Below are positions 2,813 to 8,775 of a DNA stretch of 64,000 bases, piece by piece. The notes beneath the pieces were generated by a model. It was not told the origin of the DNA, did no database searches, and was given only the letters and a program-made list of their open reading frames with translations. Source of the stretch: Sulfurimonas sp. GTDB lineage: Bacteria; Campylobacterota; Campylobacteria; Campylobacterales; Sulfurimonadaceae. The translations under genes were made by a program, and so were the position numbers. The DNA is taken from assembly GCF_026991475.1 (NCBI RefSeq), contig NZ_JALXBK010000047.1:1-64000 (forward strand), given 5' to 3'. Each line of letters begins with the position of its first letter. Position 1 is the first letter of the stretch.

Positions 2813-3730
2813 TTATTTTTTTGTTTTTCTATCTATTAAATCTACAATTAATTTTATCTTTTTATCATTGAAATCAAGACCTAATTTTTCTTGTTCTGGA
2901 GTTGCAAAAGCAGGAATACCATTTACTTCGAGTACTATATACTCCTCTTTTTCTCTATCATATATAATATCAACTCCACCAATATCTACACCAGTCGCAT
3001 TACAGGCTTTTATTGCAACATCAATTATTTCATCATTTGCTTCTCGCATAAAAACACTCCCACCACTGGTTACATTTGTGCGCCAATCATCTCCACTCGC
3101 TTTACGCCCATAACAACTTACAAATTGTCCATCAACTATATCTACACGAAAATCTGTGTTATCATAATCTATAAATTTTTCTATATAAAAATATCGTAAA
3201 TCCATCTGATTTAAAAATGGCATAAGCATATCTAAATTTGCTTCACTCTCTATTTTTGTTAAACCGACTCCACCCCAACCATCTGTTGGTTTATAAACCA
3301 TTTTATCCCATTTCTTTATAATTTTTTTCAACTCATGCCCATCATCTCTATGACAAAGGTTATAATCAGGTGTCGCAATCTTATGATTACGCAAAACAAA
3401 AGAGGTATGGAATTTGTCTTCAGTCAAAGCAAAAGCATCATAAGAGTTTATCATCGGTATCACTCTATTGAGAGCTTGATATAAATACATTTGGTATTGT
3501 GTCTGCTCTCCGGCATTATAAGAGAAAAAGAGATCTAGTTTATTTAATTTTTCGCCATAATGCTCTTCTCCTCTATAAATAATATTGCCATTTTTAGCGA
3601 TTGCATGACGCAAACTAACATCATCTAATGTCTCAATTTCTCTCTCTTTTAACTCTTTAATAATCTTTTTGGCAATTTTATCTCCGCCACCATTTTTATA
3701 TAACCACATACCTATTTTTCTATTTGCCAT
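2813..3730 (-). CDS. RimK/LysX-like ATP-grasp carboxylate-amine ligase
   Basis: Predicted to use ATP to join an amino acid to a carboxylate, as RimK, LysX and MptN do. The C-terminal half has the ATP-grasp signature: the glycine-rich loop KPTDGWGGVGL, RVDIVDGQFV with the following RTNVTSGG, and the metal-binding VLEVNGIPAF near the end. The usual RimK SPG is altered to GIP. The N-terminal third resembles a pre-ATP-grasp fold. I place the start at the ATG at 3730 (MANRKIG) because it has GGGGAT five bases upstream; a longer frame begins nine codons earlier inside the preceding gene. The chosen start overlaps the end of the M20 gene by 11 bases, implying translational coupling. The substrate is unknown, but with two carboxypeptidase-type neighbours an oligo-amino-acid tail is a reasonable guess. 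Confidence 0.85.
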   Translation of the reverse strand: MANRKIGMWLYKNGGGDKIAKKIIKELKEREIETLDDVSLRHAIAKNGNIIYRGEEHYGEKLNKLDLFFSYNAGEQTQYQMYLYQALNRVIPMINSYDAFALTEDKFHTSFVLRNHKIATPDYNLCHRDDGHELKKIIKKWDKMVYKPTDGWGGVGLTKIESEANLDMLMPFLNQMDLRYFYIEKFIDYDNTDFRVDIVDGQFVSCYGRKASGDDWRTNVTSGGSVFMREANDEIIDVAIKACNATGVDIGGVDIIYDREKEEYIVLEVNGIPAFATPEQEKLGLDFNDKKIKLIVDLIDRKTKK

Positions 3731-7090: not shown

Positions 7091-7240
7091 TACCTATTAC
7101 TGGTTACATTTGTGCATCGTGAGAAAAGTAGTTGAAGGGGAAGTGTAAATGAAGATATAAATAAAATCTATATAGTTTTAGCTTCCCTCTTACCATCTCT
7201 ATAGTTGGATGTACACATGTAACCAGTAAATAGGTTACAA
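7091..7240. repeat. 150-bp long inverted-repeat (MITE-like) element upstream of rpsP
   Basis: The left arm, 7091-7118, begins TACCTATTACTGGTTACATT. It is matched by the reverse complement of 7211-7240, which begins TAACCTATTTACTGGTTACA. The arms agree over about 28 positions with two single-base indels and two mismatches. The roughly 90 bases between them also pair partly: GGGAAG against CTTCCC. If transcribed with rpsP the whole block could fold into one long imperfect hairpin. No ORF is contained. It could be a miniature inverted-repeat element or a structured leader. Confidence 0.6.
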
Positions 7241-7353: not shown

Positions 7354-8691
7354 TTAATCCTTGAGACAGCGAACCGAAAAGCCGAAAGCACGACAGCCGT
7401 TGCCCGTGCCCGCATCGTCTGAAACGAAGTACAGATCGTACGAGCCAGAACCAGCCGGGCTACTTGACCAAATGATACCGCCTGAACCCTGATAATTCAG
7501 AGTGCCATCACCGCGGCCGCGGTCACCTGCAGATGGCAATTTTAAAAAATTATTAAAAACATCTGTATTATTTTCAAAGGAATCACCTCCACTGTTATTA
7601 ACAGTTTCTGCTGCTAATTCATCTAGCGTTGGAACTCTAAAGCCTGCTGGGCAGACTGAATTGCCATCTGTTTTGCTCCAAGCTGTACTTCTTAAACTTC
7701 CGTTGTCATCTACACCACTTTCTGCACAGTCGCATGGTGAATTGCTATTTGTTATAAATTTACCATTTTCATTTGTAGCATTGATGTCTGTTGCTAGAGT
7801 TGCGGTTGTTGTGGAGTTGGACTTCTGGTGTCCATCTGCAGCTCTTCCCCACTGGTAGTAGTCTCCATAACTTTGATTGTCATCCACTGCCGTTGCTACT
7901 CTGGATGCTCCCAAGTTTCTGTCAAGCCAAATTTTTCCTGTATAAGGTGAGGCAACTTGACCATAGGTTTTTCCTCTCCATGTGATAGTTGCAAAAGTAG
8001 ATTTATAGGTTTTGAGCATCGATTCATACGATGAAACAGCTACAGTAGTGTTTATCTCTTTTACTTTTTGTACAAAAACTCTCATATTGTTTTGTAGAGT
8101 CGTATCTGTAACAGTTGCGTTTATATCACTCTGTATCTGGGTATAGAGTGCATTGAGGCTTGTTGCATTCATATCTGCTCTTAGTTTATGAGTAAGATTG
8201 CCATCTTTTTCTACTACATAAAGCAGTTGCGCAAGTTTAGCCAGGTCTGTGTTGTTTGCAGCTATATAATCAACTGAAAAATCTGAGAGCGTTGCAGGAT
8301 TATCACTAAGAGCTAAGTTTGCCAACTTTCCTAAAACTGTAGAGTTTCCATCTATAAATGTTGTAATGGGAGATATAACACTCCCACTACTACAACTCAT
8401 ATTTATATCAAAGCTTGTGTTTGTATCTTCATATGCTCCACCTGTAAGTGTAAGTGGATATGCTACAGAAGATGTAAAAGTATATTTTCCGCCTGCTCCG
8501 CTGTATGTTGCTGTTTGTCCCGAAGCATCTTTAAGCGTTGCATTTTTTATGTAACCATCGAGTGCCGTTACATTTGTTCCCGTTGAGCCTACATTTGTTG
8601 AATCAGGTGAGGAATTATTTCCTCCACTATTACAAGCATTAAAGCTTAGAGTAAGTGCTAGCAAAAGAGTTACTGAAATATATTTTCTCAT
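7354..8691 (-). CDS. Lipoprotein with C-terminal Fibrobacter-succinogenes-major-paralogue (C-type-lectin-like) domain
   Basis: Signal peptide MRKYISVTLLLALTLSFNAC has a lipobox ending in Cys20, so the protein is probably anchored in a membrane. Residues 20-230 are low-complexity and helical with no recognised domain. From about 232 (ITWRGKTYGQVASPYTGKIW, then LDRNLGAS) to the end is the FISUMP domain, ending GFSVRCLKD. The last 61 codons are abruptly GC-rich (about 56 % by hand count) and use many codons of the form NNC/NNT at loop positions, unlike the AT-rich codons before them. This is the pattern of a variable region diversified by a retroelement. SD AAAGG seven bases before the ATG; TATAAT on the minus strand at 8719-8724. 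The gene interrupts the usual ffh-rpsP neighbourhood. Confidence 0.82.
   Translation of the reverse strand: MRKYISVTLLLALTLSFNACNSGGNNSSPDSTNVGSTGTNVTALDGYIKNATLKDASGQTATYSGAGGKYTFTSSVAYPLTLTGGAYEDTNTSFDINMSCSSGSVISPITTFIDGNSTVLGKLANLALSDNPATLSDFSVDYIAANNTDLAKLAQLLYVVEKDGNLTHKLRADMNATSLNALYTQIQSDINATVTDTTLQNNMRVFVQKVKEINTTVAVSSYESMLKTYKSTFATITWRGKTYGQVASPYTGKIWLDRNLGASRVATAVDDNQSYGDYYQWGRAADGHQKSNSTTTATLATDINATNENGKFITNSNSPCDCAESGVDDNGSLRSTAWSKTDGNSVCPAGFRVPTLDELAAETVNNSGGDSFENNTDVFNNFLKLPSAGDRGRGDGTLNYQGSGGIIWSSSPAGSGSYDLYFVSDDAGTGNGCRAFGFSVRCLKD
7357..7539 (-). other. Candidate DGR-type variable region in the lipoprotein gene
   Basis: This segment encodes the C-terminal FISUMP loops from LPSAGD to the last codon. 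GC content jumps to about 56 % against AT-rich flanks. Runs such as GAC CGC GGC CGC GGT are what AAC/AAT template codons become after adenine-directed mutagenesis. The end encodes GFSVRCL, the position where mutagenic-homing sequences lie in lectin-fold targets. No reverse transcriptase or template copy is in the window, so this is inference. Confidence 0.4.
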
Positions 8692-8718: not shown

Positions 8719-8775
8719 ATTATAGTGTTCATATATTTAATATTTTGTTATTTTTCGGTTTGAAATGGGGGGGGG
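8719..8775 (-). promoter_or_regulatory. Lipoprotein promoter with upstream poly-G tract
   Basis: Reading on the minus strand, a TATAAT lies at 8719-8724, about 28 bases before the start codon. A tract of nine G residues (nine C on the coding strand) occupies 8767-8775, about 55-63 bases upstream of the predicted start point. Homopolymer G/C tracts this long in an AT-rich genome of this phylum are usually slippage-prone. Here length change would alter promoter spacing rather than reading frame. Confidence 0.45.

Follow-up and report, generated by a model that had tools for sequence, protein, structure and literature searches.

Orphan in its assembled genome: the 3' end of a Sulfurimonas-like lipoprotein gene has the make-up of a retroelement-diversified variable region

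The last codons of a lipoprotein gene in a Sulfurimonas-like bacterium have the make-up of a variable region of a diversity-generating retroelement (DGR). This is well supported by their composition, by a codon-position comparison with the nearest homologues and by a positive control, the proven DGR targets known from the family; all three agree with a sequence-only reading that had suspected a variable region at this place. A complete DGR is absent from the assembled genome, in which neither a DGR-type reverse transcriptase (RT) nor a near-identical template is present. We infer the DGR behind the segment from this pattern, and regard it as probable that a DGR variable region, orphaned in the assembled genome, makes up the 3' end of the gene; it would have been diversified by a DGR that is now lost, unassembled or located on an unbinned element.

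The window, that is the entire stretch of 64 kb that was analysed, originates from contig C47 (161 kb) of a 2.07-Mb genome of a Sulfurimonas-like genus, which is assembled in 131 contigs and 99.96% complete. Judging from the translations, the lipoprotein gene is presumably flanked by an rplS/trmD/rimM-type block on one side and by ffh on the other. The features considered here are the following:

7354..8691, minus strand: lipoprotein gene, 445 aa, whose C-terminal domain is assigned to the C-type-lectin-like FISUMP (Fib_succ_major) type, as judged from the ORF, profile matches and the lipobox ...LSFNAC in the sequence.
7525..8016, minus strand: constant part of the FISUMP domain with ordinary AT-rich codon usage (GC3 ~0.25, A3 ~0.38).
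7354..7524, minus strand: segment resembling a variable region (codons 390-445 and the stop), DRGRGDGTLNYQGSGGIIWSSSPAGSGSYDLYFVSDDAGTGNGCRAFGFSVRCLKD, marked by a sharp-edged GC3/A3 shift and supported by the codon-position test against two homologues.
7354..7374, minus strand: conserved 3' end GTTCGCTGTCTCAAGGATTAA, a possible homing (IMH-like) end, in which GTT CGC TGT CTC AAG GAT is identical in the window and both homologues, i.e. in two genera.
8767..8775, minus strand: C9 homopolymer (G9 on the plus strand), 76-84 bases upstream of the start codon, a candidate phase-variation switch.

The FISUMP domain comprises the C-terminal 220 residues and is divergent. TIGR02145 matches with E=8.6e-5 and 23.3 bits, below its cut-off of 41.65, the match ending at residue 445, and Pfam Fib_succ_major with E=0.0034 and 18.1 bits, below its cut-off of 33.9. 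As the lipoprotein is also 38-58% identical to FISUMP domains of other genomes, the assignment appears weak but consistent and points to a divergent relative. The predicted structure is of low confidence (pLDDT 40), too poor for use. The stretch that separates the lipoprotein gene from its neighbour contains a strong inverted repeat (7092-7235) with 22-nt arms of 91% complementarity and a DNA fold z-score of -5.2; Rfam gave no convincing match for it, and a 20-mer at 3065-3084 resembles it with 2 mismatches.

The composition of the gene changes abruptly towards its 3' end. In 120-base windows, GC content rises from 0.23-0.41 to 0.55-0.56 over positions 7360-7539 and drops again on both sides, which bears out the jump to about 56% that had been described from the sequence. 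On the coding strand, A decreases from 0.36 to 0.16 in the segment, while GC increases from 0.38 to 0.56. The last ~57 codons have a GC3 of 0.52 and an A3 of 0.11, as compared to 0.25 and 0.38 in the upstream part of the gene, and the break is sharp: 20-codon windows show GC3 values of 0.10-0.15 across codons 351-390 and of 0.45-0.65 from codon 391 to the stop. Among core codons 390-445, NNY accounts for 43 of 56 (77%) and A-ending codons for only 3, against an NNY fraction of 0.52 in the remaining gene. The dominance of NNC/NNT codons and the scarcity of adenine that had been described from the sequence were thus confirmed. The span of 7354-7539 originally proposed holds for ~7354-7524, its start having been set about five codons too early, as LPSAG (7525-7539) is ordinary. 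With amino acids fixed, synonymous codons were drawn from nearby genes or from the remainder of the gene itself; this gave an expected GC3 of 0.20-0.23 and a maximum of 0.43, and none of 20,000 draws reached the observed 0.525. The amino acids therefore do not account for the shift, and the segment is foreign in composition to the gene of which it is part.

If variable codons derive from AAC/AAT in a template, tails from related templates are expected to disagree at bases 1 and 2 but to share base 3, which is the reverse of normal divergence. This was examined at amino-acid-different codons in comparison with two homologues at ~60% identity, Arcobacter sp. LH_M16 (G010; same family, other genus) and Sulfurimonas sp. 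NORP87 (G113; same genus as the window genome), yielding 56 tail codon comparisons. In the tail, the window and LH_M16 agree at bases 1, 2 and 3 in 6, 8 and 17 of 28 codons, respectively, and upstream in 14, 17 and 12 of 44. For NORP87, the corresponding counts are 6, 9 and 18 of 28 in the tail and 10, 19 and 16 of 45 upstream. When both pairs, which have the window in common and hence are not fully independent, are pooled, base 3 is kept in 35/56 tail codons versus 28/89 upstream (Fisher p=2e-4). Out of 251 FISUMP pairs, these two show the highest and second-highest tail-minus-body agreement at base 3 (+0.33 and +0.29; median -0.05). The LH_M16 and NORP87 tails, which agree with each other in 6, 8 and 15 of 30 codons, follow the pattern within the tail as well, but with base 3 kept in 20/43 body codons there is little excess. 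Hence, relative to its closest homologues the segment has changed at positions 1 and 2 of its variable codons and kept position 3. Differences spread evenly over all bases had been named as evidence against a variable region; between genomes the opposite is seen, i.e. concentration at codon positions 1 and 2. Such a pattern is expected after adenine-directed rewriting of AAC/AAT codons, and the proven targets of the family show the same.

These targets belong to intact-looking DGRs of the genus and family, whose RTs carry an IGNxxSQ motif and whose repeats differ at template adenines: 22 of 23 TR/VR differences fall on template A at locus L075, 17 of 17 at L077 and 11 of 11 at L078, with A on the coding strand in the latter case. 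Between different genomes, proven variable regions agree at bases 1, 2 and 3 in 408, 730 and 949 of 1900 amino-acid-different codons, and the bodies upstream of them in 1318, 1260 and 1096 of 4025. Their A3 amounts to 0.00-0.20 versus 0.12-0.45 in the body, with one exception of doubtful frame. The Lcl_C/DUF1566 targets (L070-L074, L076, L138) resemble the window in the A3 and GC3 shift, in the codon-position pattern and in a related C-terminal grammar, ...N.NNNN(K/R)..(Y/S)VRC, but they represent another domain family and have template and RT within ~2 kb. Several apparently intact DGRs were noted in Sulfurimonas-like genomes and relatives (L070-L079, L138, L155, L156). A literature search combining DGRs and Sulfurimonas yielded a single paper, on the pan-genome of Helicobacter pylori. 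Unlike the window genome, NORP87 retains a decayed Lcl_C-type DGR (L153, G113:C8, 879-1919), in which the middle of the RT is missing and N- and C-terminal pieces are left; a template-like repeat is fused to a target gene and a second target lies downstream. The NORP87 FISUMP tail fits the L071 and L073 templates, with 0 of 150 shuffles as good. Lcl_C templates from sister genomes were rejected as a source of the window segment, since their fit to it did not exceed that of shuffles.

The sequence-only reading had suggested that the lipoprotein is the target of a remote DGR in the same organism and had proposed a search for a near-identical template beside a DGR RT. Neither was found genome-wide, an outcome that had been named beforehand as refuting, and this part of the proposal is not supported. 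The RVT_1 profile had no match in the source genome at E≤10, nor did a profile of 11 family DGR RTs, which detects the intact elements in sister genomes. By blastn, a template is absent from the source genome; matches of 14-46 bases look like chance, and those inspected lie in unrelated genes. When the variable codons were set back to Asn and the resulting peptide was searched for, only the gene itself was retrieved. The Lcl_C genes of the source genome (C63, C86) do not conform to the variable-tail pattern. Searches of 228 family and 397 class genomes yielded no FISUMP-type template, the templates found in the family being of Lcl_C/DUF1566 or other types, and phages and plasmids provided no DNA or protein match. 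Across GTDB contigs, the conserved 3' end occurs in the two known homologues, in AUK043, in Fibrobacter and Flavobacteriales FISUMP-like genes and in some chance matches, and no DGR-type RT was present in the stretches that were retrieved.

A sub-case of the preferred reading adds present activity: the segment would be a currently active remote variable region that is rewritten in trans by a DGR on a plasmid, a prophage or a small contig missing from the assembly. This is unlikely. The GC3 of the segment has kept its distance from the host value, which speaks against an old relic and for a diversification or acquisition that was not ancient. Moreover, DGR RTs of the family (~18 of 228 genomes) often reside on contigs of a few kb, and targets distant from the RT escape metagenome surveys (PMC8144416). 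However, the near-complete assembly contains neither RT nor template, and its 161-kb contig crosses the segment cleanly, whereas strong population variation would tend to break or blur the assembly.

Comparison of ~38 FISUMP tails, nearly all from the window's family, revealed that the composition shift is not general to the domain but graded. The drop in third-position A is largest in LH_M16, the window and NORP87, which are mutually close relatives, and is absent in many of the tails. In LH_M16 (L169) and NORP87 (L165), the FISUMP tail resembles that of the window in its composition break and its identical last codons, and both tails are orphans as well. A representative of another family of the same order (G490) has a tail A3 of 0.07 versus 0.38; a 127-base repeat around its FISUMP gene, considered as a template, turned out to be a duplicated piece of a transposase-like gene. 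A milder A3 drop was observed in the FISUMP tails of two complete genomes without RT (G088, G099); some of the shift may therefore have a different origin. The conserved 3' end may serve an IMH-like role, as its position suggests. Genome G145 contains dozens of FISUMP domain copies (L175-L183), several of them with shifted tails, and no DGR RT at E≤1e-20; one RT locus inspected there looks LINE-like by motif and possibly represents eukaryotic contamination.

The segment could also have been brought in by ordinary recombination or transfer from the FISUMP gene of a GC-richer relative, without any retroelement. The closest full-length homologue (57%), that of LH_M16, indeed belongs to another genus, has a local GC content of ~48% and possesses a GC-rich tail, and an isolated C-terminal FISUMP fragment exists in genome G147. 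There, an 86-aa ORF (C21:1004-1264, L101) situated between a Fic-like gene and htpG consists of the C-terminal FISUMP loop segment alone and is a candidate fragment or silent cassette. Yet recombination would treat the codon positions alike, whereas here bases 1 and 2 diverged and base 3 was kept. In addition, the LH_M16 gene itself has the same internal break (A3 0.06 in the tail versus 0.38 in its body), and no whole-gene GC-rich donor was seen, which makes this explanation quite improbable. Least probable is that the shift follows from the amino acids of lectin loops (Gly, Ser, Asp, Tyr and Asn, with NNY or GC-rich codons) plus selection: their loop-rich make-up lifts the expected GC from 0.38 to 0.44 and RT-free complete genomes do show mild shifts, but the observed GC3 lies outside all fixed-amino-acid draws, homologous tails with similar loops show no shift, and control pairs have a median tail-minus-body base-3 agreement far below that of the two window pairs.

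A viral contig (L209) holds a sequence that may resemble the template sought. A non-coding-looking, N-rich stretch of this contig reads AYNLNFNSTSSINPSNNNNRNNGFSVRCLR, and a gene downstream of it ends in AYYLHFSGTSGISPSGSYNRQNGFSVRCI. When the end of the window gene, NGCRAFGFSVRCL, was compared with this stretch, allowing changes at template A, 0 of 150 codon shuffles scored as well, the shared SVRC end supplying part of the score. The repeat pair on L209 is not a clean TR/VR pair, as 21 of its 49 differences are at A, and the record has no RT match. Hence, the contig may be taken as supportive only.

The lipoprotein may in addition be phase-variable. Phase-variable surface genes with poly-G/C tracts are found in Campylobacterota, and the window gene is similar in that a long G/C homopolymer lies upstream of a surface lipoprotein, here in one genome and judged by the location of the tract. 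The C9 tract is the only G/C run of at least 6 in the window, ~0.011 runs of at least 9 being expected, and is positioned ahead of a TATAAT box in the sequence upstream of the lipoprotein gene. In G490, a FISUMP lipoprotein gene carries a G8 tract (L203, 9855-9862) just before its own TATAAT-like box; no comparable tract is present in any other of the 21 FISUMP genes examined, not all of which include upstream sequence. Its location suggests that the C9 tract confers phase-variable expression on the lipoprotein, probably switching it on and off.

We propose that an earlier DGR copied its putative FISUMP-type template, which would bear codons of the AAC/AAT kind and end near ...TCG GTT CGC TGT CTC, by error-prone reverse transcription and pasted the product over the 3' end of the gene at the presumed homing end. 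The pasted copy would alter the putatively ligand-binding, ligand-facing loops of a lectin-like surface lipoprotein, and the retroelement may later have been lost or may persist on a plasmid, prophage or low-coverage contig outside the assembly. That FISUMP folds are DGR targets, as the sequence-only reading had noted, is documented: Fib_succ_major domains have been reported as targets, among them one at the C terminus of a lipoprotein (PMC4159848). These proteins from human gut metagenomes share with the window gene the C-terminal FISUMP domain on a lipoprotein and the variable end, but a matching template is present there, whereas the window genome has neither template nor RT. Since FISUMP domains are documented targets and PMC8144416 states that its survey misses targets distant from the RT, the kind of target described here is already known.

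A bolder and rather doubtful extension is that Sulfurimonas-like bacteria contain a set of orphan FISUMP variable regions on surface lectins, whose tails would be diversified in trans, across genomes or genera, by a DGR that is mobile and seldom assembled. With phase-variable expression in addition, a single lipoprotein would then combine random on/off switching with a randomly varied binding face. If the 3' end of the lipoprotein gene is indeed an orphan variable region, DGR targets would be recognisable without their retroelement, by third-position conservation together with an A3/GC3 break. This would reveal variable regions missed by RT-centred methods, as well as present or past action of DGRs in genomes that are counted as free of them. 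The gene thus makes a case for asking what becomes of variable regions after loss of the DGR, and whether one template serves several genomes.
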